Source: Brevibacillus agri (GTDB lineage Bacteria; Bacillota; Bacilli; Brevibacillales; Brevibacillaceae). From it: a DNA stretch of 64,000 nt. Numbering within the stretch: the stretch's first letter is position 1; each line of letters starts with the position of its first letter. The notes beneath the pieces are model-generated. The model was not told the DNA's origin. It saw only the letters and a list, made by a program, of their open reading frames with translations, and made no database searches. Both the position numbers and the translations under genes were made by a program. This document shows, one piece after another, positions 4,213 to 23,595 of the stretch. The stretch is from NCBI RefSeq assembly GCF_004117055.1, contig NZ_CP026363.1:1217001-1281000 (forward strand). Direction: 5' to 3'.

Positions 4213-4216
4213 GGCA

Positions 4217-4525: not shown

Positions 4526-4610
4526 GGGCATCTCCTCTAACAATCGTGCGTGTCTTGTGCTTAATTGTAGAGAAGAGGACGAATGCCCGCAAGAAAAAAG
4601 AAGGGCAGTA

Positions 4611-4814
4611 TCATGAGTTTCGCTTGCTGTGATTGGTCAGAACCGGAAGCACCCGGGTATCCTTTACCATTTGCGAATGGCAAAAGGGGCAGCTCGGGCT
4701 CTCGTCAAAGGAAAAGTTATCTCTCATCCAGCACGTACACCCATCATTGCTGCACGTCCACACATCTGTTTCCTCTTCTTCGACCGGAACAACTGCTTTC
4801 TTCGAGAAATACAC
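4611..4814 (-). CDS. ydjO: YdjO-like cold-inducible protein
   Basis: A 67-residue protein resembling Bacillus YdjO. Its features are an acidic EEEETDVWTCSNDGCTCWMRDNF segment read in pieces, with a CxxxxC pair followed by a second pair, CPFC, suggesting a small zinc ribbon. The start is GTG 4814, preceded by AAAGGAGG at 7-base spacing; there is no ATG in frame nearby. YdjO is reported as cold-induced in Bacillus and its molecular role is not established. The gene is transcribed alone. Confidence 0.8.
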   Translation of the reverse strand: MYFSKKAVVPVEEEETDVWTCSNDGCTCWMRDNFSFDESPSCPFCHSQMVKDTRVLPVLTNHSKRNS

Positions 4815-4953
4815 ATGAACTCCTCCTTTGCGGGGCATCGTGCTTTACAGCAACCTCTATTAATGTGTGATGGAAGGCCCGTGAATATACCAAGATTTTC
4901 TGTCTGCGCAAAAAGCTTCCTGGCCAGCCAACAGGCGCGCGAACGTCCCGCAA

Positions 4954-4987
4954 AAAAAGGCAACGGAGCATCGTCCGCTGCCTTTTT
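4954..4987. terminator. Terminator-like hairpin downstream of the decayed kinase
   Basis: AAAAAGGCA pairs with TGCCTTTTT across a loop that itself contains CGG/CCG. It lies just beyond the 3' end of the minus-strand kinase remnant ending at 5001, and its T run suits termination on either strand. Confidence 0.65.
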
Positions 4988-5000
4988 GGCAAAAGAGGGG

Positions 5001-6528
5001 TCACAACTGATCGGGAATTAAAATTTGTCCGGCCGATTCGTGGCTGGTGACGGCGAGCAAGATCGCCTTCAACAAAGTGTCGGGATGGTAAGGCTTTAGC
5101 AAATAGCCCTTTGCTCCCAAATCAAACGCTTTTTTCTTTTCCTCAAACGCGCTGGAAATGACGATCGGGATCGTCTTCAGCTCCGGGTTTTCCTGCATCG
5201 CCTCGATGACCTTCCAGCCGCTCTCGCCATCTTGCAAAATCAGGTCGAGCACGACCGCATCCGGACGCAGGCGGTAAATGGCGTCGAGCGTCTCCTGTGC
5301 CGTGGAAAAAGGATAGACTGCAAAGCCCAGCACGCTCGCCAGCGGGGTGCGCAACTCGTGGCTCACGGTGCTGACAAATTCGGATTTCATCTGGTCAATC
5401 TCGTATTCCTTCGTGATGTCCCGGTAAACCAGCAGCGTGCTCCACTTCCGCTGGTTGCGGTACAAAGGCTCCGCGTAGAGTTGGATGTACCGTTTGACAG
5501 GAGAGGTCAGTTCAAAGACGATGCTGTCCTCTTGCGCATCGCCTTCGCCCAGCGCGACTGCTTTGATGTACGGGATGAGACGGTTAGGCTCTGCCGTGCA
5601 GCTTTGCAGATGGGCGAAAAACGCGTCGATGTCAAAGTCCGATACGGCCTGCTCGCGATTGCAGCCAAGCAGCTCGCAAAACGTGCTGCTCACCTGGATC
5701 GTTCCGCCGTTGAGAGAAAGCAACTGTATGCCCCCTGCACGGAGTCGAGCATTTCCTGCGTAATTTGCCGCTGCCTTTTCGTTTCCTCAAACATGGCGAG
5801 CTTGTCCAGGGCGAGCGAGACTTGCTTGGCCATGCCGATCAAGATGTGCTGCTCGTGCTCGGAGAACCTGCGGTCGATGCGGGCGAGAATGATGCAAGCC
5901 ACGACCTCCCTGTGCGAATCCAGTACCGGGAGATACAACTCGTAAGTGCGGGAACGAGCAGGGTGGAAGCCGCGCTCGCCCACTGTACTTTCACGGTTGA
6001 CGACAAATGGCAGCCCGGTTTCCTTGATGCGGACAAAAGGCCCGTCCTCGATCCCTTGCAGCAACTGGTCAAGCCCTTGCCGGGAAATGCCGAAGCTGGC
6101 GCAGCCGCGATCCGCGTCCAACAGCACGATGACGCCTTTGTCTGCTTCCATGATTTCTACGGTGTTCGAAATAATGCTCGACAAAAGCTCCCTTTGTCCC
6201 ATGTACTGGTGAGCGCGAGAACAAAGCGGTTCTTTTTCTCCAGATAGTGCTCGTTTTCCGCCATTTTGGACAGAGCTTCCTGCAGTTCCTCCTGCTGCAT
6301 CATCAGCTCGTCTTGCTGGGCGTGCAACTCTTCGTTTTGCGCCATCAGCGCTTCTTCCTTGTGCTGAATCTGCCGCATCATGTAGTCGAGCGAGCGGGAG
6401 AGCTTGCCGATCTCATCCGCCCGTTCCAGGCCGTTCAACTGCGGCGTTTCTCCCTGAGCAAAGCGGTCGGGAACAGATTGCTGAAAAAATTGGCGACAAA
6501 CGATTCGATCGGCGCGTGATGCTTTCAC
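5001..6528 (-). pseudogene. Decayed hybrid sensor kinase (HAMP-GAF-PAS-HisKA-REC remnant)
   Basis: Reading leftward, three successive frames carry pieces of one protein. First comes a HAMP-like segment with DEIGKLSRSLDYM and a long Gln/Glu coiled coil (6528-6157), then a GAF domain (about 6202-5690), then a PAS-like segment, a HisKA H-box (SHELRTPLASVLGFA) and a receiver C-terminal half (about 5723-5001). The frame changes near 6190 and near 5735; the second fits loss of one G in a G run. Immediately after the H-box the sequence jumps to the middle of a receiver domain (RPDAVVLDLILQDG), so the rest of HisKA, the whole HATPase domain and the start of REC are gone. The N-terminal sensor is missing too. 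It cannot autophosphorylate. It lies downstream of the receiver and GGEEF genes, its likely former operon partners. Confidence 0.85.
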
Positions 6529-6549
6529 GGACGTATTTCCGAAGCCGAG

Positions 6550-6911
6550 TCATGCGAGCATGTCCCCCACCTTGCGGACGAGCTCCAGCGGGCTGAACGG
6601 CTTGGGCATGAAGTCATCGGCTCCGGCGGCGCGCATTTTTTCCTGTTCCGCATGCTGGCTTTCCGCGGAAAGAATGAGAACCTTCACCGCTTGCTTGTCC
6701 GTCATCTGCTTCATCCGGGTCAACACCTCAAAGCCGGTCAGCTTGGGCATCATGTAATCCAAAATGAGTAATCGTACTGATTGTGGCTGATTTTTTGCAG
6801 CGCTTCCTCACCGTCGCAGGCGATGTCGAGCAGATGCCCTTCATCCTCCAGCGTATCGCCAATGAGCATCCGCAGTACGGCTTCATCTTCAGCCAGTAAT
6901 ATCATTGCCAT
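6550..6911 (-). pseudogene. Single-domain response regulator with a -1 frameshift
   Basis: ATG 6911 has TTCCTCC (GGAGGAA on its own strand) at 6-base spacing and begins MAMILLAEDEAVLRML, a standard receiver start with the acidic pair. After QYDY the frame closes at a TGA near 6752. The expected continuation, DYMMPKLTGFEVLTRMK through KPFSPLELVRKVGDMLA, follows in the neighbouring frame to 6550. Restoring one T near 6765 would join the two parts, including the phosphoacceptor Asp. It is a stand-alone receiver, probably once a partner of the adjacent GGEEF protein and kinase. A single-base sequencing error is possible here. Confidence 0.75.
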
Positions 6912-6936
6912 TTTTTCTTCCTCCATCTGATATTGC

Positions 6937-8559
6937 CTACATCATTCGCTTGACTAGCCGCTTGATGCGCGCTTCCAGCTCTTTCGTGCTGAAAGGCTTC
7001 GTCATGTAGTCGTCAGCGCCGAGCTGCAGGGCTTGGGCAATATCTTGTTCGCCGCTGCGGCCTGTCAGCATGAGCACCGTGTACTGCTTGCTGTTCGGCA
7101 GGTTGCGGATGCGCCGCAGAACGTCCAGCCCGTCCATTTGCGGCATGATCCCGTCCAAAATGATGAGATACGCTTCCGGCCCCTGATGCCAGGAAGATGC
7201 AAAAAAGGCAGCCCCTTCGTGGTACGTCCGGATGTCCGAGTGAATCCAGCCGTCCAGGCTTGCCCGCGCCGAGTCGGCGAGGACGGCGCAGATCAGCGGA
7301 TCATCGTCAATAATGGCGACTTTCAGCTTCACCGTGCGCGTATCCGGATCAGCGCTGCGCACAGCCGCTTCAATCCGGCAGCGCCCCGCATTTTTGGCAG
7401 AGTATAACGCCGTATCCGCAGCGTCGATCCAGTAGGCGAGCGGCTTTTGCGCATCCTCAATTTGCACGACGCCAGCGGAAAAGCTCAGCGAAAACGTCCC
7501 TTCGGAAGCTTCGAAGGAGAGGTCGCGAAAATCGCGCAGCATTCGTTCCAGCCGCAACTGTGCTTCCTGTACCGACGTCCGCGGCATGAGCAGAATAAAT
7601 TCTTCCCCGCCATACCGGAAAAAGACGTCCTGCTTCTCCGCGCTTCCCCGGATGAACGCGGCGAAGCGGCTCAGTACGACGTCGCCTACCAGGTGCCCGT
7701 AAGTGTCATTGACCTTTTTGAAATGATCGATGTCCAGAAAGGCCAGCGAAAAGGGCGCGTGGCTCCGCATGGAATCCGCAAGCAGCTTCTGGTACGTATC
7801 CGCGAGGCAATTGCGGTTGTACACGCCGGTCAATTCATCGAGAAACAAAATTTTATCCATCCACCGTTTTCTTCTGAGCTGTCTTTCCAGCCGGACGGTT
7901 AGTTCTTCCAGGTCAAGCGGCTTGCACATGACATCGTCGGCACCCAGCCGATAAGCGCGCAGGCGCGTTTCCCGATCGCAGTCAATGCTGATAATCGTCG
8001 TCGGGACGTATTGCTTTTTAATTTTTTCACTGAGCGTTTGCATGACTTGAAAGCCGCCTGTTTCGGGAATGTTCAGGTCGAGAATCAGGCAATCCGGGTT
8101 GAGGTCGTGGAAGTAGTCGAGTGCCTTGTGAGGATAAACAGTAGCGATGACGGACCAGTTTTGCTTCTCCAAATATTCTTTTAGGTACATCAGCAACGTC
8201 ACGTCGTCGTCTAAAATGAGCAGGAGAGGCTGATTGTCGTAGGTAGACTCTTGCGGTAGCGTGGGGTCCTCCAAAAGAATTTCCTGCTCGGGACGATGCT
8301 CGTAACACAAGGCGATGAGCTCTTGCAAAAAGTCACGCCACTCGTGCGTTGGCCAAGGTTTCGCATCCTGCTGGTCCAACTGCTCCAACAGCGTCTGCGC
8401 CAGCTCGGACAAATCGGCAAGACCGATCGTTCCGGCTGTGCCTCTCAACGAGTGAACAAAGCGGTACAGCTCTTCGTGGGAGACCGGCCCCTCCTGTGCG
8501 AGCCAGGCTTCAAACTGCTTGTGGACTTGAAAAAGAAGTGTGTCTCTATACTTCATCAT
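6937..8559 (-). CDS. HPt-REC-GGEEF-REC diguanylate cyclase
   Basis: A 540-residue signalling protein. An HPt domain has its phosphoacceptor His at 36 (FVHSLRGTAGTIG). REC1 spans about 110-230 with Asp 161 (LILDLNIPE). A GGDEF-class domain spans about 236-400 with the active-site form GGEEF at 317-321. REC2 spans about 412-535 with Asp 469. The active site should make cyclic di-GMP from two GTP. No RxxD inhibitory motif is evident just before GGEEF, so product feedback may be absent. The protein is soluble. It precedes the frameshifted receiver gene by 25 bases and the kinase remnant, so its original phosphodonor was probably that kinase. The start ATG 8559 has a GGGGGAT stretch about 10 bases upstream. 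Confidence 0.88.
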   Translation of the reverse strand: MMKYRDTLLFQVHKQFEAWLAQEGPVSHEELYRFVHSLRGTAGTIGLADLSELAQTLLEQLDQQDAKPWPTHEWRDFLQELIALCYEHRPEQEILLEDPTLPQESTYDNQPLLLILDDDVTLLMYLKEYLEKQNWSVIATVYPHKALDYFHDLNPDCLILDLNIPETGGFQVMQTLSEKIKKQYVPTTIISIDCDRETRLRAYRLGADDVMCKPLDLEELTVRLERQLRRKRWMDKILFLDELTGVYNRNCLADTYQKLLADSMRSHAPFSLAFLDIDHFKKVNDTYGHLVGDVVLSRFAAFIRGSAEKQDVFFRYGGEEFILLMPRTSVQEAQLRLERMLRDFRDLSFEASEGTFSLSFSAGVVQIEDAQKPLAYWIDAADTALYSAKNAGRCRIEAAVRSADPDTRTVKLKVAIIDDDPLICAVLADSARASLDGWIHSDIRTYHEGAAFFASSWHQGPEAYLIILDGIMPQMDGLDVLRRIRNLPNSKQYTVLMLTGRSGEQDIAQALQLGADDYMTKPFSTKELEARIKRLVKRMM

Positions 8560-8741
8560 GCCGCATTATCCCCCTGTTTTTCGGGAAGGCCCGAGCCAGT
8601 CGCAAAGACTGTCGGGCCAGGCTCATAAAAGGTATTGTACATCTAACTAGGTGGAAGTGTACCATATCAGGAGGGGTTCTCCAATGAAAGGATTGCGTTT
8701 GGAGGAAGGAAAAGGGCAGGCCGTGACAACTCTGTTACAAG

Positions 8742-9218
8742 CTAGTTGCGCAAGGAAAAGCCTTCTTCTTTCAGATACTGTTCGGCTTCTACGTAAGACT
8801 CGAAGGAAGCCTCCAGGTTCATGCCGTGGTAGACGTTCCACAGCGTGTCTTCCTGCTGCAGAAGCAGCGTGCGATTTTGCTTGTCGACCCAGGTTTGCTC
8901 GAGTGGCTCGTTTGCTTCCGCCTTTGGCTGCGGCTCGCGTTTGACAGAGAGCGACTGGATGGAAGCCTCGATGATCGTGCGCAATTCCTCTGCGGAGAAG
9001 TCGCGAATGTTGACGTAGCCTTTGTCGTCTTTGGGATAGCCCTTCAAAAAGCCTGCGAATACGAAGCCGTTGCCATTCGGATGCAGATGGTAAACGACTG
9101 TCTTTTTGTCGTGAAGACTTGCCTCGTAGTGAAAATTGACCCGCTTGAGCGAGACGTTGTTTCGGGTCAGTTGTGGAAATGATTCAATGATCGCCAGTTT
9201 TTCTTCAAAAGTAAGCAT
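8742..9218 (-). CDS. Conserved-looking hypothetical protein
   Basis: 158 residues starting at ATG 9218, with GGAGGAAT upstream on its strand. It has an N-terminal mixed alpha/beta half containing VYHLHPNGNGFVFAGFLKGYPKDDKGYVNIRDF read in parts, a short Pro/Lys/Glu linker (about 100-110) and a C-terminal segment with WVDKQNRTLLL and a final EQYLKEEGF. No signal peptide or membrane segment is present. The family was not recognised. The gene diverges from ywbE across a 95-base promoter region. Confidence 0.65.
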   Translation of the reverse strand: MLTFEEKLAIIESFPQLTRNNVSLKRVNFHYEASLHDKKTVVYHLHPNGNGFVFAGFLKGYPKDDKGYVNIRDFSAEELRTIIEASIQSLSVKREPQPKAEANEPLEQTWVDKQNRTLLLQQEDTLWNVYHGMNLEASFESYVEAEQYLKEEGFSLRN

Positions 9219-9312
9219 GGATTCCTCCGATGAGAAAAGTTTTGTTTGTCGATTATATCATAGGTGGGACAAAGAACGAAAAAGTCATCGAACGAGGAAA
9301 GGAGGGACTGCC

Positions 9313-9516
9313 ATGAACGGGAAAAACCGCAAAGACATTGCCCCTGGCCTGGAGGTCGACATCGTGTTGAAGCAGGATCAGCGCACAGGCAAGCGGACGC
9401 GCGGAATCGTCAAGGACATCCTGACAAATTCGAGTACGCATCCGCACGGCATCAAGGTGCGCCTGACCGATGGACAAGTCGGCAGAGTGCAGGAGATTAT
9501 CCGCAAAGGGGAGTAA
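9313..9516 (+). CDS. ywbE: YwbE-family protein
   Basis: A 67-residue protein closely resembling Bacillus YwbE (DUF2196): NRKDIAPGLEVDIVLKQDQR, then TGKRTRGIVKDILTNSSTHP, then HGIKVRLTDGQVGRVQ. The pattern suggests a small KOW-like beta barrel. The start ATG 9313 follows GGAGGGACTGCC; the frame upstream is open but unlike the family. The molecular function of YwbE is not established. A GC-rich palindrome with a T run follows at about 9544-9562 and may terminate it. Confidence 0.88.
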   Translation: MNGKNRKDIAPGLEVDIVLKQDQRTGKRTRGIVKDILTNSSTHPHGIKVRLTDGQVGRVQEIIRKGE

Positions 9517-9543
9517 GGGCCAAAAGACGGGATGCAGCCACAA

Positions 9544-9562
9544 GGGCGCGCCCGTTTTTTTA
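9544..9562 (+). terminator. Possible terminator after ywbE
   Basis: The palindrome GGGCGCGCCC is followed by GTTTTTTT a few bases after the ywbE stop. The stem is short, so this is a tentative call. Confidence 0.45.
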
Positions 9563-9597
9563 TTTGCAACGAGTTCGCGCCGAAAGGACAGGCCAGT

Positions 9598-9809
9598 CTA
9601 GCTGCGCTCGGCCAGTTCAAATTCGGCGACGGTCAATTTGGCATAGCCGGCCATTCCATGACGCTTCCGAGCGTCAGCGGCGCTTGTCCGAAGTCTTCCG
9701 GTACGTCGTCCCACTGCCTGATAAAATGCGGATGAATCAAGACTTCCCAGACTTTTTCGGGCGCGGCATGAATGACGACTTCATGAGAAACCAGAAGTGA
9801 CGTAGACAA
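9598..9809 (-). pseudogene. SRPBCC/AHSA1-like domain remnant
   Basis: A TTG at 9809, preceded by AAAGGAGG at 8-base spacing, starts a frame reading SHEVVIHAAPEKVWEVLIHP and then FIRQWDDVPEDFG, the N-terminal strand and helix of SRPBCC (START-like) ligand-binding proteins. The frame closes at TGA 9633-9635. Restoring one G in the run near 9649 continues the domain as GYAKLTVAEFE before a stop at 9598-9600. Even so, the protein is less than half the family length, so the rest of the gene has been deleted. Confidence 0.65.
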
Positions 9810-9924
9810 GGGGGAGTCCTCCTTTGGGATAGAGCGTATTTGTTTCTTCTATAATTATCATGATTCACTGCCTCCATCGAAGCGGGGCTGCTGAGCCTGT
9901 TAGTTGCCGCAGCCGGAAAGCAAG

Positions 9925-9953
9925 CAAAAAAAACCGTCCTGTCCGGACGGTTT
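9925..9953 (-). terminator. Terminator of the isochorismatase-like gene
   Basis: A 9-bp stem AAACCGTCC / GGACGGTTT with a 5-base loop is followed on the minus strand by eight T. It lies 22 bases past the stop of the gene ending at 9975. Confidence 0.85.
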
Positions 9954-9974
9954 CTTCGGCGTAGCCAGGAGTGG

Positions 9975-10535
9975 CTAGCGGTACGTATCGTGCGTAGGAG
10001 TAAACAGGTCCTCCGTGGAATCGCGCACCAAAATGAACGGGTCAATGTTCCCGAGGCCATGCAGGCAGGCGTTGTGGTGGGCGATGATTTGCTCGGCGGC
10101 CAATACGGCATTGTCAGTCGTCGAGTGCCCGTCCCGGACGAGCGTGACGTCATAGCCGAGCGTCGTCGCTCTGCGGCAGGCGCTGTCGACACAATACTCC
10201 GTTTTGCAACCCGTAATGACGAGATGGTTGATTTCGAGAAGCTGCAACTGGTCATGCAGATCGGTTCCGTGAAAAGCATCCGTGGATTGCTTCAGGACGA
10301 CTGTTTCGGTCGGGAGCGGCGCCAGCTCCGGGTGGATGGCGAAAGCGTCAGCCCCGGCTTCGGCGACATCGGTATCCTGCACGTACAGGACCGGAATCGC
10401 CCGCTTCCACGCTTCCTTCCTGACCTTTTTGATCGTCGTGACGAGCGCGGCGTTTTGAAAAACGGGGCCAATCGCCGGGCCATCGACAATCCCTGTCTGT
10501 GCATCAACAATCAGAAGCGCTGTTTTGCGAATCAT
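9975..10535 (-). CDS. Isochorismatase-family cysteine hydrolase
   Basis: 186 residues. The catalytic triad of the family is visible: Asp in ALLIVDAQTG, Lys in VVLKQSTDAFHGT and Cys in TGCKTEYCVDSACRRA. Family members hydrolyse amides, carbamoyl compounds or isochorismate; the sequence does not settle the substrate, and the most likely class is a nicotinamidase-like or carbamoyl hydrolase. The start ATG 10535 follows AGGAGGAACAGG; an upstream in-frame ATG at 10550 overlaps the ribosome binding site. The gene is monocistronic with its own terminator. Confidence 0.85.
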   Translation of the reverse strand: MIRKTALLIVDAQTGIVDGPAIGPVFQNAALVTTIKKVRKEAWKRAIPVLYVQDTDVAEAGADAFAIHPELAPLPTETVVLKQSTDAFHGTDLHDQLQLLEINHLVITGCKTEYCVDSACRRATTLGYDVTLVRDGHSTTDNAVLAAEQIIAHHNACLHGLGNIDPFILVRDSTEDLFTPTHDTYR

Positions 10536-14718: not shown

Positions 14719-16059
14719 AGCTCTTCACCATAAAACGTGCTTGATCTCCCTCTATCGCAGTTTTTCGTAGTTATGTAGCCGGTTTACACTCCAGTCTAAT
14801 GCGAATCTTGAATCTCTCTAGATTGCGGTAGCCGTAGGCTCTTCGTTTGATTACCTTCACTTTGTTGTGTGTCCCTTCAATCTTGGCATTCGTTACCCGA
14901 AAGGAAAAATAATGCTGAATGGGCTCTTGCCACTGGACAATCGTTTTGGCAATGGAACGAACCGCAGGAGTCGGAGAATAGAGATGGTCGACAATCCATT
15001 TCTGAAGCGCTTCCTCCCCTGCCTCTTGGGTTTCAACGGCATACACGGTTCTTATGTCTTGAAGCGCAAAGTAGAGTCGTTCCAGATGTGGATCTTCTGC
15101 TAACCAAATCTTCAGTTCCTGAAGCTCTTCGGGCTTCAGCTTGTCAGGGATCGTATGGAGCAGGCGTTGCTCATGTCTGCCCCGACGATGTGTTCCACGA
15201 GCATGAGTGCGTTTTCGGGTAGCTTCCAACGCTTTAGAGAAAAGCTGGATCACGTGAAATTTATCTGCTACCACAAGGGTATGCTTCCAGACCTGGCGTA
15301 CGGTTTCAGCCATTCCTGGAGCCAAATCCGTGACAACTACCTGGGGAACCTTACGAAAAGGCCATTGCTGCAGCGCGTTTCGTACTTGTTCACGTGAACG
15401 TCCTTCTGTGACTTGCCAGATATGACCGGTTTGAGCATCCATGAGGTTCACGCCATACTTATGTCCTTTTTGCAGAGCAAACTCATCCAGACAGACCACT
15501 TCAGGAGCTTCATGTTCTTTTGGTTGAGCAAGGCGTTGGGGGGCCAGTTGGTAGTACCAGCGTTCAAGTGTCGAGTAGGCCACACTCAATTGCTTGGCAA
15601 CCGAGAGCAAATCCCGACTGTGGCACATATCCACCGCCATCTCTTGAAAAGCAGAGGTGACGGATCCTCGAGGCGGGATACCGTTCCATTCCACTGTCCA
15701 TGTAAGCCCACAACTCGCACAGCGCTGGCGATACACGGGAACGGATACCCAGACGGTCCCCCAAGCAGGAACGAAACGATGACGAAGAATACGCCGTCCA
15801 GGACGTGCATGGTTGGTACTGGCTCCGAGGCAGATCGGACAAAGATGACAGGCAGAATGCGGTTCCAGAACAGCGATCCAATCCGTTTCCTTTGTTTTTT
15901 CCCAATGTGTGAGATGGAATGATGGAAGTCTGATAAAGTCTGTGCTAAAATCAAGGCACAACGCAGATTTCCTCCTTTTCAGTGGTTGTCTCGACAACTC
16001 CCACGATAAAGGAACATCTGCGTTTTTTCAATGTCTAGCACGGGTTATGGTGATGAATC
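14719..16059 (-). mobile_element. ISL3-family insertion sequence, 1341 bp
   Basis: Imperfect terminal inverted repeats of about 23 bp are visible. The left end reads AGCTCTTCACCATAAAACG and the right end, on the other strand, reads GATTCATCACCATAACCCG; both continue TGCT. The element holds one transposase gene and is flanked by 8-bp direct repeats AATTATTA, so it looks like a recent intact insertion. It lies between the opuA terminator and the azole-peptide cluster, and its right end stops 25 bases before the -35 of the precursor promoter. Confidence 0.85.
14771..15961 (-). CDS. ISL3-family transposase
   Basis: 396 residues if started at TTG 15961, which has AAAGGAGG 9 bases upstream; an in-frame TTG at 15997 is an alternative. 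The N-terminal half holds paired Cys in CHLCPICLG and CASCG, a zinc-binding region, followed by a helix-turn-helix-like part. The catalytic core shows VCLDEFALQKGHKYG, VVVTDLAPGM with VVADKFHVIQ, and a terminal NAKIEGTHNKVKVIKRRAYG block carrying the conserved Glu. No stop or frameshift interrupts it, so the element may be active. Confidence 0.92.
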   Translation of the reverse strand: MCLDFSTDFIRLPSFHLTHWEKTKETDWIAVLEPHSACHLCPICLGASTNHARPGRRILRHRFVPAWGTVWVSVPVYRQRCASCGLTWTVEWNGIPPRGSVTSAFQEMAVDMCHSRDLLSVAKQLSVAYSTLERWYYQLAPQRLAQPKEHEAPEVVCLDEFALQKGHKYGVNLMDAQTGHIWQVTEGRSREQVRNALQQWPFRKVPQVVVTDLAPGMAETVRQVWKHTLVVADKFHVIQLFSKALEATRKRTHARGTHRRGRHEQRLLHTIPDKLKPEELQELKIWLAEDPHLERLYFALQDIRTVYAVETQEAGEEALQKWIVDHLYSPTPAVRSIAKTIVQWQEPIQHYFSFRVTNAKIEGTHNKVKVIKRRAYGYRNLERFKIRIRLECKPAT

Positions 16060-16083: not shown

Positions 16084-16112
16084 TTGACAAAAAGAGAGTA
16101 TTTTTTTACTAT
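16084..16112 (+). promoter_or_regulatory. Promoter of the azole-peptide precursor
   Basis: TTGACA (16084-16089), exactly 17 bases, then TACTAT (16107-16112): a strong SigA-type promoter. It lies outside the insertion sequence, so the cluster's own promoter survived the insertion. The leader before the precursor start is about 47 bases and AT-rich. Confidence 0.75.
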
Positions 16113-16165
16113 TTAGTTGGTGGTATTTTTATCCATCAATAACTTTTATTAGGGGTGTAAGAAGC

Positions 16166-16363
16166 GTGGAGAAAGAAATTGTTCGCGGAGCAAACAAGGA
16201 AATCATTGGGGATGGAGGCATGTTAGGAATTTCGAAGTTTGGGGTTGGTTCAAATTTCAATACTATTCAATCTCTGACAGATAAAAATAAGGGGGGCCGA
16301 TTGTGCGCTTCTTCCTCTTCTTCAAGTAGTGGTGCTGCCACTATCGGTAAAAATAACCGATAA
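16166..16363 (+). CDS. Precursor of a linear azole-containing peptide (LAP/TOMM)
   Basis: 65 residues starting at GTG 16166, with AGGGGTG 8-9 bases upstream. Residues 1-44 form a leader containing ISKFGVGSNFNTIQSL. The core begins after Gly-Gly at 43-44 and includes CASSSSSSSGAATIGKNNR: one Cys (47), seven consecutive Ser (49-55) and one Thr. These are substrates for YcaO cyclodehydratase and a flavin dehydrogenase, giving thiazole and oxazole rings. The seven Ser use TCT, TCC, TCA and AGT codons, so the run is not a simple DNA repeat. It is the first gene of a microcin-B17-like operon. The exact cleavage site and number of rings are inference. Confidence 0.85.
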   Translation: MEKEIVRGANKEIIGDGGMLGISKFGVGSNFNTIQSLTDKNKGGRLCASSSSSSSGAATIGKNNR

Positions 16364-16409
16364 TTCTTATTTTACTGGGGAAGACATCGTTTCCACATGA
16401 AGTTTATTA

Positions 16410-16469
16410 AGCCAAATTCAAAATGGAGCTTATTGACAACAATAGTTACCCGCTATTTTGAATTTGGCT
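16410..16469 (+). promoter_or_regulatory. Hairpin between precursor and modification genes
   Basis: A perfect 15-bp inverted repeat, AGCCAAATTCAAAAT at 16410-16424 and its complement at 16455-16469, with a 30-base loop. It lies in the 160-base gap after the precursor stop and has no T run directly after the stem. It may be a partial terminator or RNA stabiliser giving more precursor than enzyme message. Confidence 0.65.
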
Positions 16470-16523
16470 ATCTACATAACTTTTAAAAGAGTAGAACAAA
16501 AAATAAAATGATGGTGAATTAAT

Positions 16524-17390
16524 ATGACTTCTAATTATCGGATCAACAGATTTCTGTGTCATTCCTTACAGAATGGAGATGTAGTAGTTCAAACTGCAAA
16601 TGGAGTAATGAAGATTCATGATAAAGATCTCATTGATTTAATTCAATCGTGGGATCGAACGGGCAAGAAAGAAATTTCAGAGTCTGTGCTTGAACAAATT
16701 TTCAAAGAAGAAAAAGAGGAGGTTATTGGTTTTCTAGCAAGCAATGGGTTAATACGTACAGTGAAAGAAAAAATGCTCCGAATAGATTCCGTTACTATTA
16801 TGACCAATGATGATTTTTTAAGGTCAATATTAATGAATACATTAGTTGAAGATTTTCAAGAGAATCTGGCAATCACGTCACTTTCAGTTGATGACATGCA
16901 GCCTTGCGAGGAAAATGAATTATCCCTTGTATTTCTAAATCCCTATAACAAAAGTTTAGGAAAAAGAATCAGGGATAGACATATGGAATCAAGCAACTCT
17001 TATTTATTGATGAGTTATATATACAACAATAAATTTTATATGGACTCGCTTTATAACCGTAATTGGGTTAATCCATGTCATTGTTGCCATATAGGTCATA
17101 TTGAATCGCATATGAGAATTGGAAGTGCTGATAATTTAACTTATCAGCAAGTCATTGACATGCTTTATTCTCTGGAGGAAGACATCAAAATCGGCGTTCC
17201 TTTAACCAATAGCCAACGAGTTATTATTGCATCATGTTTGATTAAGCGTATGCAATTACTTTTTCATGATTTTACTTACTCAAAAATTCATCATGAAGAT
17301 ATTAATAGAGCGATGGTCATGAAACTGGATAATTTTAAAATATATGAAGATACTTCGATTCATTGGGAGTTGTGTGATTGTTATGAATAA
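16524..17390 (+). CDS. McbB-like (E1-like) component of the azoline synthetase
   Basis: 288 residues. An N-terminal region (1-85) has a small helical/winged segment like the leader-recognition part of McbB-type proteins. The middle has NPCHCCHIGHIES (Cys 185, 187, 188), and the C-terminus ends ELCDCYE (Cys 284, 286), together suggesting a zinc site as in McbB. In microcin B17 synthesis, McbB binds the leader and presents it to the YcaO enzyme. The start ATG 16524 follows GATGGTGAATTAAT, a modest site. It is AT-rich like its neighbours, and its stop overlaps the next start (ATGAATAA). Confidence 0.75.
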   Translation: MTSNYRINRFLCHSLQNGDVVVQTANGVMKIHDKDLIDLIQSWDRTGKKEISESVLEQIFKEEKEEVIGFLASNGLIRTVKEKMLRIDSVTIMTNDDFLRSILMNTLVEDFQENLAITSLSVDDMQPCEENELSLVFLNPYNKSLGKRIRDRHMESSNSYLLMSYIYNNKFYMDSLYNRNWVNPCHCCHIGHIESHMRIGSADNLTYQQVIDMLYSLEEDIKIGVPLTNSQRVIIASCLIKRMQLLFHDFTYSKIHHEDINRAMVMKLDNFKIYEDTSIHWELCDCYE

Positions 17391-18213
17391 CATAAGTGAA
17401 GATTTATTAGTAGAGCAGAGAAGAAAGAATGATTTTGCGAATCATTTACAAGCAGAAGTTCTCTCTAATAGTTTATTGGATCAAGTTGTTAAGATGCATC
17501 AGGAAGGATGCTGGATATCAGAAATAATGTATGAATATGAGGAAGAGCTACTAGAGTGGATGGAATTAGTGGAATTTACAGATATTATACCGGAGTATTA
17601 CGAAAAATCATTCCAATTTAAAATCGAACAAAAAACTGTTGAACGTACTAGGAGCTGCCGAACATTTAAAGAGAATTGGAACATAAATACGGATGATTTT
17701 GGGATCATCCTTCGAGACTCATTCGGCAGATTTTCCAACACTTTAACCAAGAACTATCCTTCTGCTGGAGGCTTGTATCCGGTTTTACCGCTCGTATATG
17801 TATTTGACGAAGGTGTCTTAAAAGGGATTTCTGTTAAAGGATGCTATTTGTTTCATTCCTCGAAAAATGAACTGATTTTACTTAAAGAATACGATGAGGA
17901 ACTTTTAAATTTAGTAATCAATCAAATTAACCCTTCTGACCGAAGTTTATTTTCTAAAATCGCTATTGGCTATGCCATTGATTTAAAAAGAGCTATCACC
18001 AAATACAGAAAACGAGGGTACAGATACGCATTAATTGAAATTGGCGCAATGTGTCAGAGTTTCAGGGAGACATTAAGTAGGTTTGACAGTAGCTTAGGTG
18101 AATTTTGTTTTGCGGGGTTTAATGACAATGCCTTGACTCATTTATCTGGCTTAAACGCAAGATTAGCGCCAGTAACATTAATTCAGTGGTTTGGTGAAAG
18201 AAATGATATTTGA
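17383..18213 (+). CDS. SagB/McbC-type FMN azoline dehydrogenase
   Basis: 276 residues from ATG 17383, which overlaps the end of the McbB-like gene by 8 bases. The nitroreductase-like fold is marked by RTRSCRTF and by NYPSAGGLYPVLPLVYVF, the hallmark of SagB-type dehydrogenases, with a C-terminal RYALIEIGAMCQSFRETLSR block. It would oxidise thiazolines and oxazolines to the aromatic azoles using FMN. It acts in the cytosol in complex with the McbB-like and YcaO proteins. AT-rich codon use suggests it travelled with the rest of the cluster. Confidence 0.85.
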   Translation: MNNISEDLLVEQRRKNDFANHLQAEVLSNSLLDQVVKMHQEGCWISEIMYEYEEELLEWMELVEFTDIIPEYYEKSFQFKIEQKTVERTRSCRTFKENWNINTDDFGIILRDSFGRFSNTLTKNYPSAGGLYPVLPLVYVFDEGVLKGISVKGCYLFHSSKNELILLKEYDEELLNLVINQINPSDRSLFSKIAIGYAIDLKRAITKYRKRGYRYALIEIGAMCQSFRETLSRFDSSLGEFCFAGFNDNALTHLSGLNARLAPVTLIQWFGERNDI

Positions 18214-19282
18214 TGTGTCGAAAAGAAACTTTGGTTATAAGGACTCACTCTTCAACAATAGACCAGTTTATTTAGCGACTTCAAGAATCGGAACATTCAG
18301 GAGGGAAGACGGTGGAATAGGACCAGTAGATTGTGGCGCTATTTCTCAAAGAAAAAGAAAGTCAGTTTTAAAGGCGTTTTCTGAATCAATAGAGCGCAGA
18401 GCATTAGTAATTGGAGCTAGAGGGGACGCCATTGAGGGTTTGGCAGAATCGTTTGACATAATGAATAGTAAGGTTGCAAAGATTCCTAGACGATTTACGC
18501 AACTATGCAAGGAAGATTCTATCGTTTGTGATACCACGGGTACAGCAGCACACTTTAATAGTAAGTTGGCTCAATCAAATGCAATTAAAGAATTATTAGA
18601 GAAAAATTCAACGTTTCTTTTTTGGTATGGGAGACAAGGGAAAAAAATTGATTTATCTCAACACTATTCTATATACGTTAGTCTTTTTCAAGCAGAAGGA
18701 TATCAAGTACAAGCATACGTAGAAGAGACATTTAAACCATTAAAAGTAGTATTTGTTTTTGCAAAGAATGCAAATCACATTACTCCCTTTACTTTTATGA
18801 CAGGAGTAGGCTCAAGTATTTCTCTTTCGAATGCTATTCACAAGGGCTTGTCAGAAGCATATTTACTAAAAAACGTTTATGATGACTATTTTTATAGATA
18901 CCAACTAGAAGGGCTTGAACCGAGTTCGTACACGGCGATTGTCCTAAAAGCCCAAACTGATAGCGAATGTCTAAAACACCTTGAACTGTTCAACAAGCTG
19001 GATACTTATCAAGAAGTGGACGAAGATATCACGCTGTCTGAAGCCGAGGTAGAAACTGATCTGATTGTGAAAAATTTACCAGTTTGGGTCAAAGAGTTGC
19101 ACACTACAGTTTTATATCAAACCGTAAATAAAAATCTAATTATCATTAAAGCATATTCGCCTAATCTCTATAATCATGTTGCACTGAAAACGTATATTGA
19201 TCTTGATAGAGATGTGAACAGGTATACAGTTAATTTAACTCAGGATACTTTGAATCATATACCAACGTGTCCAATATTATAA
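18203..19282 (+). CDS. YcaO cyclodehydratase-like protein, first copy
   Basis: 359 residues from ATG 18203; TTG 18191 and GTG 18194 are alternative starts, and all overlap the dehydrogenase gene. The first YcaO nucleotide motif is present as SESIERRAL (about 60-68). The second conserved block, around AIKELLEKNSTFLFW, has Lys-Asn where the neighbouring YcaO has Arg-Gln. The C-terminus ends HIPTCPIL and lacks a clean PxPxP tail. It may be a partner or scaffold to the second YcaO rather than the main ATP-dependent cyclase. That reading is inference. Confidence 0.8.
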   Translation: MIFDVSKRNFGYKDSLFNNRPVYLATSRIGTFRREDGGIGPVDCGAISQRKRKSVLKAFSESIERRALVIGARGDAIEGLAESFDIMNSKVAKIPRRFTQLCKEDSIVCDTTGTAAHFNSKLAQSNAIKELLEKNSTFLFWYGRQGKKIDLSQHYSIYVSLFQAEGYQVQAYVEETFKPLKVVFVFAKNANHITPFTFMTGVGSSISLSNAIHKGLSEAYLLKNVYDDYFYRYQLEGLEPSSYTAIVLKAQTDSECLKHLELFNKLDTYQEVDEDITLSEAEVETDLIVKNLPVWVKELHTTVLYQTVNKNLIIIKAYSPNLYNHVALKTYIDLDRDVNRYTVNLTQDTLNHIPTCPIL

Positions 19283-19294
19283 AGGAGCTTTTCC

Positions 19295-20407
19295 ATGTAT
19301 TATGTAACGAATAGTCCCAATCATGGACATGCTTTTGTGGCAAATCGAATATGGATAAACAAAGGAATATTTCAGTGCGGGTATTCCAATTGTTATGTAG
19401 ATTGTGCAATACACAAAGCTGCCTATGGAAATTCAGTGAAGAATAACACCAGGAAAGCAATGGCTGCTGCAATTGGGGAACACCTTGAAAGGCTAGCGCT
19501 TTTTGCCCCAAGGATGAAGGCAATTCAGGAAAATGGTAGCGCCAGCACAGAAGCCTTTAATTTAATAACTGGAGATACAATAAAAATACCTTTGGATTTT
19601 GTCATTTTAGAGTATGGCCATCCGGTTTTTAAAGATAAAGATATGCATAGCTCTTTCAGTGATACTTGTGGAGTAGCTTCACATACTTCCAGTGCTTATG
19701 CAATAGAAGCAGCATTTTTAGAATTTATCGAAAGACAGTCGCTAATACATACATGGTTAACTAAGAAAGCAGGAAGATTACTATCATTAAAATTATTGGA
19801 AAAACAAAGTGTTTACAATATTATACAAATGAGCAAGACATATAAAGGAATTCAGGAGTTTTACTTGGTTGATATTTCAATAACGGATGACGTCCATGTC
19901 GTACTAGCTTTAGGTTTTGGAAAAGAGTCTTTCAGTATTGGGGCAGGGGCACATTGGAATCTGTTAGATGCGGTTAATCGAGCCATGAATGAGTATTTTC
20001 AATTTATGACTGGTTTTTGGGGAAGGGAGAACGAGGGGGAAAGTATAGACGGCGACTTGTATTATGACTTTTGTAACTCATTAAGCCCAGAGAAATTTCG
20101 AGAAGAATACGCATTCTTGACTGATAATAAAAGGCAGCTTGAGGAGAATATTCCCTTAACGAAAACATCTCAAAAAGACACGTTCATTGAAAGAGTTCAA
20201 AGAGTGGTAAATGATCTAGATATTTCTGTTTACGCAACGTGTGTTCCTGAAACAATGGAATTCAACACAAAGGTTGTTAAAGTATTCTCACCTGATTGTT
20301 ATCCGCATATGAATACTGCCTTACTTGATCCACAAGAATATCGCTTCTCCAGAAAATTTGATCGATCTATATATAAAAACCTGAACAAGCTGATACCGTT
20401 CCCATAA
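19295..20407 (+). CDS. YcaO cyclodehydratase, second copy
   Basis: 370 residues, ATG 19295 with AAAGGAG upstream, 12 bases after the first YcaO. Both nucleotide motifs look intact: AAAIGEHLERLAL (about 57-69) and SAYAIEAAFLEFIERQSL (about 133-150) after DTCGVASHTS. The protein ends LIPFP, close to the proline-rich C-terminal tail that TOMM YcaO enzymes use in catalysis. It should phosphorylate the amide backbone with ATP and drive ring closure of Cys, Ser and Thr in the precursor. This is the likely catalytic D protein of the complex. Confidence 0.88.
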   Translation: MYYVTNSPNHGHAFVANRIWINKGIFQCGYSNCYVDCAIHKAAYGNSVKNNTRKAMAAAIGEHLERLALFAPRMKAIQENGSASTEAFNLITGDTIKIPLDFVILEYGHPVFKDKDMHSSFSDTCGVASHTSSAYAIEAAFLEFIERQSLIHTWLTKKAGRLLSLKLLEKQSVYNIIQMSKTYKGIQEFYLVDISITDDVHVVLALGFGKESFSIGAGAHWNLLDAVNRAMNEYFQFMTGFWGRENEGESIDGDLYYDFCNSLSPEKFREEYAFLTDNKRQLEENIPLTKTSQKDTFIERVQRVVNDLDISVYATCVPETMEFNTKVVKVFSPDCYPHMNTALLDPQEYRFSRKFDRSIYKNLNKLIPFP

Positions 20408-20488
20408 GAAACACTTACATGGTTTGCTAAAGGATTCATTACGCCTGAAAATGTAAAAAAATCAAAAAGAGAAAGGAAAAGGAACCGA

Positions 20489-21247
20489 ATGCTTAGAAAA
20501 TCATACGAATTTTTTATCGTATTTATCAAGTCGATGATCGATGAAAAAATTGCGTTAGCCTGGTCGATCCTGTTGCCTCTGTTGTTGTTTTTTTCTATCA
20601 ATTACAGTTGGTTCCACGCCAAGCCGGATGTTTCGAAAGCTGTTTATTACTACGCCAGTTTTTGGGCCTTCTCTGCAGTGCTGGTAGTGTTTAACGGGAT
20701 TGGGCTAAGATTAACCGATTTTCGAGAGTTAGGCATCCTGAAAAGCTTTGTCTTCATCTGCGGCTCAAAAGTTCCTATTATCGTGGGACTTTTACTCAGT
20801 CAAATTGTTTTTGGGCTGGTTAGTCTCGCTTTGTTTACGGTTGTTATTTCCATCGTCTTTGATTACCCTATTTTTCTTCTGTTTTTCACTGCTACGTGTA
20901 CCTATTTGGTCGTTTTACTCCCGCTTTTTATGTTGTCTCTCTCGATTGCAAGCTTGTCGGTAAGGGCTTCATCTGCCTATACGCTTGTCAATATGCTGAT
21001 TTTTCCGGCGACGTATTTGGCTATCTATCGTGGCGAGTCTACCGATTTTTTTACTACTATCCTTTACTATTTAAATCCGGTTGAATATGTGTTTCGCTTT
21101 TCCGTGTTTACCTATGATGCATTGACCAATAACCTTCACCTGAATAGTAACCACCTGTTTCTTTTGGTCATTTCGCTGGTCTACATCGCGATTGGGGTCA
21201 TTGCATGGTCGAAAATAAAAATCGCTTCAACCGTAAGAAGAACCTAA
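20489..21247 (+). CDS. ABC-2-type permease, McbE-like
   Basis: 252 residues with about six membrane helices, a long charged-poor topology and a final basic tail (KIKIASTVRRT). The start ATG 20489 follows AGAAAGGAAAAGGAACCG. It stands exactly where mcbE stands in the microcin B17 operon, between the synthetase genes and the ATPase. It probably exports the mature peptide and may confer self-protection. Base composition is less AT-rich than the upstream synthetase genes. Confidence 0.82.
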   Translation: MLRKSYEFFIVFIKSMIDEKIALAWSILLPLLLFFSINYSWFHAKPDVSKAVYYYASFWAFSAVLVVFNGIGLRLTDFRELGILKSFVFICGSKVPIIVGLLLSQIVFGLVSLALFTVVISIVFDYPIFLLFFTATCTYLVVLLPLFMLSLSIASLSVRASSAYTLVNMLIFPATYLAIYRGESTDFFTTILYYLNPVEYVFRFSVFTYDALTNNLHLNSNHLFLLVISLVYIAIGVIAWSKIKIASTVRRT

Positions 21248-21274
21248 TCTAAAACAGGAAAGAGTGGAGAACAG

Positions 21275-22012
21275 ATGATCGAATTAAAAAATATATCGTT
21301 TTCCTACCCGAAGAGTGAAAAGAAAGCGATCAATCAACTGAATATGAAACTGGAGGCAGATAAGGTCAATGTGGTCATTGGCCTGAATGGGGCAGGGAAA
21401 ACAACGCTTTTTGATTTGCTGACGGGAGTGTTAGCGATTCAGGAAGGCGCGATTGATGGAATCCCTCAAGCGAAAGAAATCGTATATCAAACGCAAAGCT
21501 TGTACTTTTCCCCCATTTTGAAAGGCAGGGACATTGCGCGACTTATTTTACATATAGCGGACAGAGCGTTCGATAAAAATCCGGAGATGTGTTTGTCTCT
21601 GCTGGATGACCGAGAAAGAGAACTGGTCAGGGAGCTTTGGAATCGGAAGTTTGGGCAAATGTCTGTTGGCGAAAGGAAGTGGCTGCTCGTCACCTTGTTT
21701 GCCGAGATCAACAAAAGCTTCTATTTGTTTGATGAGCCTACGAGTGGGGTTGACCCTTCGGCCAGATTAAAAATATTGAACAAGATTGCGGGCATAGCCA
21801 AAAAAGCCGGGCACACCGTTATGATGTCGACTCATCAATTGCAGGAGCTGGAATTTATCGATTGCAAAATTTTCATTCTTCATGCGGGGAATGTGAAGTA
21901 TGCAGGCTCCTACCAGGATTTGCTGACTACGTACAATACCCCTAATCCGGACAGGGCGTTTCAGTACTGTATCGAAAGCGATGACCGCTCCTTGGGAATT
22001 GCCCATTACTAA
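21275..22012 (+). CDS. ABC transporter ATP-binding protein, McbF-like
   Basis: 245 residues. Walker A is GLNGAGKTT, Walker B is FYLFDEPTSG and the switch His is in MMSTHQLQE. The signature is unusual, QMSVGERKW in place of LSGGQ. The ATG 21275 follows GAGTGGAGAACAG, 27 bases after the permease. It energises export by the adjacent permease. It is the last gene of the cluster; no pentapeptide immunity protein like McbG follows. Confidence 0.85.
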   Translation: MIELKNISFSYPKSEKKAINQLNMKLEADKVNVVIGLNGAGKTTLFDLLTGVLAIQEGAIDGIPQAKEIVYQTQSLYFSPILKGRDIARLILHIADRAFDKNPEMCLSLLDDRERELVRELWNRKFGQMSVGERKWLLVTLFAEINKSFYLFDEPTSGVDPSARLKILNKIAGIAKKAGHTVMMSTHQLQELEFIDCKIFILHAGNVKYAGSYQDLLTTYNTPNPDRAFQYCIESDDRSLGIAHY

Positions 22013-22031
22013 ATCCATTCATTATATAAGC

Positions 22032-22068
22032 AAAAGGCATTGTCGGCGGAAGAGAGACAATGCCTTTT
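22032..22068 (+). terminator. Terminator of the azole-peptide cluster
   Basis: A perfect 13-bp stem, AAAAGGCATTGTC with GACAATGCCTTTT, 20 bases after the ATPase stop. It closes the operon. Confidence 0.88.
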
Positions 22069-22198
22069 CGCTGTTCAGGCTGAACGCAAACCTGATTTGC
22101 TGCTCAACGCTCCAAAGTCTTCGTTTGTTCAATAGCTGGCCAGACTTGCTGCTTGCGGAAGCTGGCGGGATCGTAATCACGGGCGTATGCGGCGGAGG

Positions 22199-22348: not shown

Positions 22349-22704
22349 AACAGAAACGAAACGAGCAGGGAACGATTTTTCTCGCGGAACGAAGCATGCT
22401 TATCCTCCTGTCGGCGAGCGGGCAATCTGGTGAATAGTGCTATTTTTCTTCGCGGGACGGCTGTTTTATACGAGGACAAAAAGCCGTCTTGCGCCTTTGC
22501 CCGGGGACAGACAGGAGCGGTCTGCCTGCACGCAATCCGCCCTACAAAAGTTGAGGCGAAAGTAATAAAAAAACAAATCATTAACCATTTATATCCAGGA
22601 AATACGATTCATTTTTCCCTGTAATTTCTAAATCATCTTTGTAATAGGAAAATAATCCCGGTAAAATGAGGGGGTTCGTGAAAAAAAAGATTGAGGGGTT
22701 TAGC
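22349..22704. other. Gene-free region with a possible promoter
   Basis: About 355 bases. No coding region was recognised. The last 140 bases before the DUF2167 gene are AT-rich and likely hold its promoter. Confidence 0.35.
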
Positions 22705-23595
22705 ATGAGAAGACAAGCCTGGCTATCATCTTTATTTGCATGCATGTTCGCTTTTGCGGCCGTGCTCCCTGCGAGTGCAGCAGGGAACTACAATATTGTG
22801 GAAAGCGGAACGAAGGTCGAGATGGAAGGGAAGTTTTCCTTCACGGTTCCGGAAAACATGATTTTTCTCAACAAAGACGACACGATCAAAATGGAGCAGG
22901 AGCATGGGGACATCCCGACCATGAACGAGATCGGGAGCGTCCACCCGATTGAAGATAATCAGAATTGGGCCTTGTTCATCGAATACGAGGACACGGGACA
23001 CATCAGCGACGACGAGCAAAATGAGATTGATGCCGAAGCGCTGCTGCAAAGCTACAAGGACGGCACAGAAGAGGGAAACAAGCAGCGCAAGCCGGAGGAG
23101 CAGTTCCACGTCATCGGCTGGAACGTAAAGCCGTCCTACAATGCCGCCACACACGAGCTGGAATACTCGATGCTGGCCGAGACCGCGCAAAAAGATCAGT
23201 TTTTGAACTACAAGCTGCAAGTGTTGACGAGAACGGGCCATGTCTCCTTCATTCTGGTCACCGATGTTCCGTCTCTCGTGCAGGACAAGCAGACGTTGCG
23301 GGACAAAATCTTGAAAAACTTCGTGGTCAAGGAAGGGCATCGCTACACCGACTTTAACGCGGAGACGGACAAGGTCGCCGAGTTTGGGCTGACAGGCTTG
23401 ATTCTCGGCGGACTGGGCGTAGCCGCCGCGAAGAAGCTGGGGCTTTTGGCGTTGATTCTGGCGTTTGCGAAAAAAGGCTGGATTTTGATTGTGGTCGCAT
23501 TGGGAGCGCTGGGCGGCCTGGTGAAAAAGCTGTTGAACAAAAAGAAAAACGGCCAGCCGCCTGCCGATTCGGACGAGGAAAAGCCGTCCGCCTGA
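22705..23595 (+). CDS. DUF2167 membrane-anchored extracytoplasmic protein
   Basis: 296 residues from ATG 22705, where GAGGGG lies 6 bases upstream; the frame is open to 22666 but with a weaker site. A signal peptide (1-30, ending near ASAAG) is followed by an extracytoplasmic domain with WALFIEYEDTGHISDDEQNEIDAEALLQSY in parts, HVIGWNVKPSYNAATHELEY and the family signature GHRYTDFNAETDKVAEFG. Two C-terminal hydrophobic segments follow, then a Lys-rich tail. The function of DUF2167 proteins is not established. A terminator follows. Confidence 0.82.
   Translation: MRRQAWLSSLFACMFAFAAVLPASAAGNYNIVESGTKVEMEGKFSFTVPENMIFLNKDDTIKMEQEHGDIPTMNEIGSVHPIEDNQNWALFIEYEDTGHISDDEQNEIDAEALLQSYKDGTEEGNKQRKPEEQFHVIGWNVKPSYNAATHELEYSMLAETAQKDQFLNYKLQVLTRTGHVSFILVTDVPSLVQDKQTLRDKILKNFVVKEGHRYTDFNAETDKVAEFGLTGLILGGLGVAAAKKLGLLALILAFAKKGWILIVVALGALGGLVKKLLNKKKNGQPPADSDEEKPSA

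Follow-up and report, generated by a model that had tools for sequence, protein, structure and literature searches.

A putative azole-peptide operon with two YcaO proteins and a single-Cys, Ser-run precursor in Brevibacillus agri

As listed in Table 1, it was found that seven intact open reading frames (ORFs), A-B-C-D1-D2-E-F, lie together on the + strand at positions 16166-22012 of a stretch of Brevibacillus agri DNA of 64,000 nucleotides. This whole stretch (contig NZ_CP026363.1, positions 1,217,001 to 1,281,000, assembly GCF_004117055.1) is called the window here. A first-pass annotation of the window had described a small Cys/Ser precursor, an McbB-like protein, a SagB/McbC-type dehydrogenase, two YcaO proteins, a permease and an ATPase on one strand, and all of these were recovered by ORF analysis and family matches. 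The product of the operon is very probably a short, exported peptide with thiazole and oxazole rings. The annotated role in the biosynthesis and export of such a peptide is borne out by counterparts of McbB, McbC, McbD, McbE and McbF, while the product itself is predicted from the sequence.

B matched the McbB family model TIGR04424 with 232 bits (cut-off, 65; E 9e-69) and the McbB structure in PDB (E 1.5e-8), and no other cyclodehydratase-partner model of NCBIfam matched it up to E 1. Its four zinc-type Cys residues (185, 188, 284, and 286) are invariant in all 14 aligned B proteins, a set which takes in the second B protein (B′) of the G478 locus. C matched the SagB model TIGR03605 (E 1e-17, 63.9 bits). 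The Lys-Tyr motif is important in McbC-type dehydrogenases, and the Lys-Tyr pair of C is kept in 11/11 aligned C proteins; this alignment leaves out the interrupted C of G026 and the second C protein (C′) of G478, which has no Lys-Tyr. E had no Pfam or NCBIfam match, and F belongs to an ABC ATPase family of Pfam. When profiles were aligned with those of the mcb proteins by hhalign, B matched McbB (99.1%), C matched McbC of Rahnella (99.6%), D2 matched McbD (99.3%), E matched McbE (95.9%, E 6e-9), and F matched McbF (99.9%). The Rahnella McbC was used because mcbC is interrupted in the Escherichia coli MRE600 record: the mcbC of plasmid pMRE600-1 (L016, about 6735-7541) seems interrupted and has no listed gene.

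Table 1. Features of the operon and its surroundings in the window.
Feature	Position	Strand	Description
ISL3-family element	14720-16059 (transposase 14771-15997)	-	Pfam/NCBIfam ISL3; ends set by eye, approximate
Promoter-like site	16084-16112	+	TTGACA-17-TACTAT; consensus match only, 10/12
A	16166-16363	+	65-aa precursor, GTG start; leader with SKFGVGS motif; putative core (R)LCASSSSSSSGAATIGKNNR
A-B stem-loop	16410-16469	+	-24.4 kcal/mol, z -6.55
B	16524-17390	+	Predicted McbB-family E1-like scaffold / leader-binding protein; TIGR04424
C	17383-18213	+	Predicted SagB/McbC-type azoline dehydrogenase; K220-Y221, numbering from 17344
D1	18203-19282	+	Second YcaO; C-terminus PTCPIL, not PFP; Pfam YcaO
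D2	19295-20407	+	Predicted YcaO cyclodehydratase, McbD counterpart; C-terminus IPFP
E	20489-21247	+	ABC permease, McbE relative; hhalign
F	21275-22012	+	ABC ATPase, McbF relative; Pfam and hhalign
Operon-end hairpin	22029-22072	+	-22.5 kcal/mol, z -5.0; probable terminator, poor U-tract

The Gram-positive loci compared with the window were those of Brevibacillus parabrevis NRS 605, B. borstelensis (two contigs), four other Bacilli genomes (G026, G143, G612, and G478), Cytobacillus, two Geobacillus plasmids, Lactiplantibacillus plantarum, and an Enterococcus plasmid. B, C, D1, and D2 were all found in every one of them, with C interrupted in G026 and the B. borstelensis set divided between its two contigs; the permease of the G143 locus was not located. 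The mcb operons of E. coli and Rahnella have one YcaO each plus an McbG-type gene. The G478 locus (L026, G478:C10, 2094-12339) has B-C-D2 followed by B′-C′-D1 and four precursor-like genes.

Precursor A had no family match in the Pfam or NCBIfam libraries. Its putative core, RLCASSSSSSSGAATIGKNNR, has a single Cys and seven consecutive Ser residues, and contains neither a Gly linker nor the GSC/GC pattern of McbA. When the A genes of the window and B. borstelensis are compared, 40 of the 63 aligned codons differ, 32 synonymously and 8 non-synonymously (counting the GTG/ATG start), while the 15-residue segment LCASSSSSSSGAATI is unchanged despite differences in 11 of its 15 codons. Because the segment has stayed the same while these codons changed, the Ser7 core is under strong purifying selection, and by this comparison precursor A is judged to be a real gene. 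A slippage repeat as the origin of the Ser run was rejected on the same ground, as the two species encode one and the same core with 11/15 codons changed.

The leader of A shares the motif [FY]Gx[GS], whose fixed positions are F25, G26, and G28 in the window, with other Gram-positive precursors. The motif was found in 15/15 collected sequences (shuffled sequences: mean 2.5, maximum 8), a count which is partly selected because the motif guided part of the collection. It was first spotted on eight precursors (those of the window and B. borstelensis, two of G143, and four annotated plasmid genes); the G026, G612, and Gste precursors were then picked out of three-frame translations in which the motif was already being looked for, and four G478 precursors were taken from the ORF list. 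The NRS 605 precursor is the same as that of the window and was excluded from the 15. FG is present in both McbA leaders examined, whose FGVV is resembled by the Gram-positive motif. The published leader recognition motif is FxxxB (PMC10634744). The window leader has F and G in common with McbA, but its position +4 is Ser and the closest V/I/L/M/F is at +6; in the Gram-positive set, just 2/15 have V, I, or L at +4, and a strict FxxxB motif was dropped for this set. At the other end of the precursors, the final ten residues of the 15 sequences hold 40 Lys/Arg residues versus 18.5 in shuffles (maximum, 31), with one in Enterococcus, none in either McbA, and two in the window core.

Both YcaO proteins exceeded the Pfam YcaO cut-off of 25.7 bits (D1, 40 bits; D2, 83 bits). 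D2 matched McbD in PDB (E 7e-10), and the PDB entry nearest to the D1 profile was also McbD (E 3e-11), followed by MJ1094 (E 7e-8), a thioamide-type YcaO. In the YcaO tree, D1 forms a single clade (100/98) which includes the Enterococcus D1; D2 joins McbD with 87/91 and forms a clade alone with 87/71, neither of the two nodes being starred. Long branches lead to E. coli YcaO, the fused YcaO of the B. agri genome itself, and the Enterococcus rows, and the joining of the first two may be false. Some of the tree inputs were incomplete: the B. borstelensis D2 lacks its N-terminus, where the contig starts, the G478 D2 was read from an inner start, and the fused YcaO was trimmed to the part beyond residue 250. 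Residues E75, E78, R79, E199, E202, E290, and R203 of E. coli YcaO are ATP/Mg residues. The equivalents of the first six are identical in 11/11 D1 and 13/13 D2/McbD proteins, and the equivalent of R203 is Lys in 11/11 D1. The D2/McbD proteins have Phe as the next-to-last residue in 13/13 cases and Pro as the last in 8/13, whereas 0/11 D1 proteins end in PFP and 10/11 have a Cys in the terminal region, which is C360 in the window. Since the acidic ATP-site residues are kept, D1 probably still uses ATP; the idea of D1 as a dead duplicate was dropped as stated, given this identity in 11/11 D1.

The distribution of D1 was also examined. Searching 50,697 phage records with D1 gave no hit, and of 90 stretches of viral contigs which fit a pattern, none was confirmed as a relative. 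A tblastn search with D1 found 5 of 72,556 plasmid records, all from Bacilli; such a single-sequence search misses distant relatives, because the Enterococcus D1 placed in the tree went unreported. With these counts, a phage or plasmid origin of D1 was dropped. Among 398 genomes of the phylum, the D1 profile scored >400 bits only in the two genomes with TIGR04424, and three others scored 25-37 bits. TIGR04424 itself was found in 3/26 Brevibacillus genomes, 4/39 genomes of the order, 7/398 of the class, and 2/398 of the phylum (these sets overlap, and each contains the window's genome). McbB-family proteins are thus rare but not unique in Bacilli. On plasmids, a tblastn search with B found 128 of 72,556 records, of which 94 are from Escherichia and 23 from Klebsiella. 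A second locus for a linear azol(in)e-containing peptide (LAP) lies at 3.2 Mb in the same genome (L048, G000:C1:3194000-3206000, 3369-7018). It encodes a fused leader-binding-YcaO protein of 671 residues ending in HPHPFP (TIGR03882 and TIGR03604) and a SagB-family dehydrogenase of 533 residues, and by its layout it looks heterocycloanthracin-like.

Is there an immunity gene? As the first-pass annotation had noted, no McbG-like gene was found between F and the next gene by ORF analysis and Pfam. The sole PF00805 protein found in the genome (292 aa) is encoded at 1.71 Mb (L049, G000:C1:1708500-1713500, 1612-2490), far from the cluster. E was found in 4/26 Brevibacillus genomes, namely the three B carriers and G013. 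In G013 (L046, G013:C65, about 8722-10246), E-F stands alone between the same flanks, with 89% DNA identity and with no A-D there, and in G015 and G016 the site is empty, with neither E-F nor A-D. The E-F-only locus suggests transporter-based immunity, and a transporter confers immunity to phazolicin (PMC6783444). Protection of the producer by E-F, which the annotation had put forward, is therefore judged probable. The DUF2167 gene (22666-23595), which flanks the operon downstream, was considered as an immunity gene, but this was unsupported: DUF2167 was found in 13/26 Brevibacillus genomes (12 over the cut-off) and B in 3/26, all three with DUF2167. The gene lies downstream of the cluster here and upstream in B. 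borstelensis (L019), and it seems to be a marker of the insertion site, not a cluster gene.

TldD/E is needed for microcin B17 (PMC5810440). No TldD/E protein was found in the genome with PF01523, for which a control search was positive in 10/14 cases. An M16 protease is encoded at or near both Geobacillus plasmid clusters (L012 12175-13413; L013 5599-6879), and DUF2268 proteases at or near the clusters of Cytobacillus (L011 13595-14482) and G478 (L026 811-1788 and 4628-5629); the window's genome has two M16 matches outside the cluster. M16 or DUF2268 proteases are possible candidates for leader peptidases replacing TldD/E.

The first-pass annotation had placed a consensus promoter at the front of the operon and a strong terminator at its end. 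The promoter-like site fits the consensus at 10/12 positions, and its -35 box is nearer to the consensus than that of NRS 605 (TTTACA), but it is weak evidence alone because a scan of 751 bases on both strands gave 7 such matches versus 2.8 in shuffles. The hairpin behind F folds as stably as listed, but a strong terminator is only partly borne out because the T-run sits inside the stem and a terminator scan did not call it. Two further features had not been annotated earlier, the A-B hairpin and the ISL3 element. The arms of the A-B stem-loop recur in B. borstelensis. In a comparison of A-B gaps based on single-base shuffles, hairpins were also found in G026, G143, Geobacillus thermodenitrificans, Cytobacillus, and L. 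plantarum (z -3.7 to -10.9), folding was weak in G612 (z -2.1) and in the entire 621-nt gap of B. borstelensis (z -1.0), and the 26-nt gap of the E. coli mcb operon had no hairpin. The A-B stem-loop is a probable partial terminator or attenuator. The ISL3 element stops about 25 bp 5′ of the -35 box of the operon; it has AATTATTAA at each side and imperfect terminal inverted repeats (19/25), and is missing from NRS 605. Further upstream, the operon is flanked by a glycine-betaine-type transporter operon (OpuAC and permease families).

It was found that D2 is 98% identical to D2 of B. parabrevis NRS 605, and that the DNA is 98.4% identical to that of NRS 605 across 6.1 kb, starting at the promoter region and reaching the end of the operon. 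The GC content of A-D2 is 33-42%, that of E 40% and that of F 45%, versus 52.5% for the window. With this low GC content, the cluster looks acquired, as a Bacilli-type LAP operon gained by horizontal transfer.

Does the cluster correspond to a known system? In the microcin B17 operon mcbABCDEFG of E. coli and Rahnella, the homologs of B, C, D2, E, and F have the same order and the FG of the leader is shared (EFGVV versus KFGVG in the window), and to this extent the microcin B17 order of the first-pass annotation stands. A plain microcin B17 operon is not supported: mcb lacks D1, McbA has a Gly-linker core unlike RLCASSSSSSSGAATIGKNNR, and the TldD/E used by microcin B17 was not found in the genome. 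In addition, the window cluster has no adjoining McbG, and the hairpin of the A-B gap is absent from the E. coli operon. The gyrase analogy is weak because McbG is missing, an argument taken from PMC7136475. In Cox 2015 (PMC4603692), the microcin B17 clusters listed belong to E. coli and Pseudomonas species.

A layout with two YcaO proteins was described in 2020 for the lactazolicins of Lactobacillus, Enterococcus, and Streptococcus (Travin 2020, PMC7136475). These clusters share with the window an E1-like partner, a dehydrogenase, a YcaO with PxP (D2), and a second YcaO without it (D1). The Enterococcus locus (L015) agrees with the published account of lactazolicins: its partner is TIGR04424, two of its genes matched no family, and its precursor has 92 residues with CxxX repeats. 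The D1 of L015 falls in the window D1 clade. However, the presumed X1/X2 of this locus were found by tblastn in L015 only, among the window and 13 loci (distant homologs could escape such a search), lactazolicin precursors have 83-106 residues with 8-12 CxxX repeats (PMC7136475) versus 65 residues and one Cys in the window, and the permease and the ATPase are separate in the window, unlike in lactazolicins. Because neither X1/X2 nor CxxX repeats were found, the window cluster is called a sister variant, not a lactazolicin, on sequence grounds. The uncharacterized faecalisins of E. faecalis have a discrete cyclodehydratase and a D protein related to that of MccB17, as in the window, but also a Gly linker, a Cys-repeat core, and two hypothetical proteins, and a second YcaO is unmentioned in the available part of the source (PMC4603692). 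The telomestatin precursor TlsC resembles the window core in having one Cys and a Ser run (CTTSSSSS) which becomes oxazoles, but its product is cyclic and comes from Streptomyces with other auxiliary genes (PMC5469769). LAP clusters of the heterocycloanthracin/sonorensin type share YcaO and SagB-type enzymes with the window; heterocycloanthracins have a fused partner-YcaO and a Cxx-repeat core, whereas the window has discrete B, D1, and D2 and one Cys. Ser-rich leader peptides of thiazole/oxazole-modified microcins (TOMMs) were noted in B. parabrevis and two others (PMC9867215), and a window-type cluster may be among those meant for B. parabrevis in that source. Among the matches listed for the open-access literature, no paper dealt with this core or with McbB clusters of Bacillales that have two YcaO proteins.

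As a whole, the locus is likely to be best explained as an acquired Bacilli-type LAP operon, in which B-C-D1-D2 would modify the precursor, E-F would provide export and protection, and the product would be an antibacterial with a target other than gyrase. From its motif and the McbB homology, B would bind the precursor leader via SKFGVGS. As expected from the biochemistry of the families, D2, aided by D1, would use ATP to form azolines from the Cys and most of the Ser residues in the run, and C would oxidize these to azoles. The calculated mass of RLCASSSSSSSGAATIGKNNR is 2053.00 when unmodified; at a loss of 20.03 Da per ring, the form with eight azoles would have [M+H]+ 1893.80, or 1737.69 if the Arg is absent. 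D1 would most likely sit in the same B-C-D complex, either supplying the other half of an asymmetric synthetase or carrying out a further modification that depends on ATP. The A-B hairpin may set the level of the precursor above that of the enzymes. A host protease other than TldD/E would take off the leader, and E-F would export the peptide and shield the producer, with which the E-F-only relative is consistent. The last step, a narrow-spectrum antibacterial action on a non-gyrase target, is the least certain; such a target is probable because an extra enzyme is present and the gyrase-protection gene is missing. Several points weigh against this account. C scores under its NCBIfam SagB cut-off (63.9 versus 78.4 bits), and its best PDB matches are BmdC oxidases (E 5e-11), with McbC slightly behind (E 4e-9). 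The leaders depart from FxxxB at +4 in 13/15 precursors. The ring number and the cleavage site at the leader/core border are guesses, and the Ser run could remain partly or wholly unmodified. An inactive, structural role fits D1 as well as a catalytic one. The pentapeptide-repeat protein at 1.71 Mb could give gyrase protection in trans, and the E-F-only locus of G013 could reflect decay instead of retained immunity.

Alternatively, the peptide might be a LAP of the phazolicin/klebsazolicin/lactazolicin kind, which targets the ribosome with a basic C-terminal tail touching the rRNA. I consider this possible, though the less probable outcome. The enrichment of Lys/Arg in the last ten residues of the 15 precursors is in its favor, as is the presence of both D1 and D2 in lactazolicins, which are proposed translation inhibitors (PMC7136475). 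On the other hand, the window core has just two basic residues there, the tail might be removed, and a short core with one Cys and contiguous Ser residues differs from phazolicin, which has a ring at every third residue (PMC6783444). A true equivalent of microcin B17, a gyrase poison with immunity by E-F alone, would account for the enzyme set and its order, and McbE and McbF are named among the proteins for export and self-immunity (PMC10912980); with no McbG beside the cluster, no Gly linker or GSC/GC pattern in the core, and no TldD/E found in the genome, it is improbable.

A membrane-active LAP like streptolysin S is more doubtful still. Its case consists of the SagB-type dehydrogenase and of the count in Cox 2015, where about half of the TOMM clusters are in Firmicutes (PMC4603692); the scaffold belongs to the McbB family with the other cyclodehydratase-partner models unmatched up to E 1, D2 groups with McbD, and the CAAX-protease family was not among the genes scanned with Pfam. 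It is also conceivable that the locus is decayed or silenced, the ISL3 insertion having severed the operon from its regulation. The open transposase frame directly 5′ of the -35 box and the loss of A-D in one relative (G013) fit this, but all seven frames are open, the 6.1 kb is nearly identical to that of NRS 605, and a promoter-like site with the better -35 box lies 3′ of ISL3, which makes silencing quite unlikely.

A bolder proposal is that an asymmetric D1-D2 pair in one McbB-type synthetase turns C-A-S7 into a thiazole and seven contiguous oxazoles. D1, in which the acidic ATP site is kept and a conserved Cys near the end replaces PFP, would then be a YcaO of a new functional class, required for modification that is processive or directed at the tail. 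This is considered rather unlikely. Plantazolicin has two runs of five azoles, and an uninterrupted azole run as long as the one proposed here is not known from a linear natural peptide. If the pair is asymmetric, the duplicated B/C of G478 would make its two halves visible as separate gene sets.

With the acquired LAP operon as the preferred reading, the locus gives an exact precursor, demonstrably under selection, for a branch of McbB-type peptides in Bacilli that is still unstudied, with one core common to two species. The system makes it possible to ask what job a second YcaO without PxP has and what length of uninterrupted oxazole run can be made by such enzymes, and the E-F-only relative may serve as a natural case for transporter immunity. 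Should the peptide prove active, Brevibacillus would have yielded a new antibacterial scaffold, one whose target is probably not gyrase.

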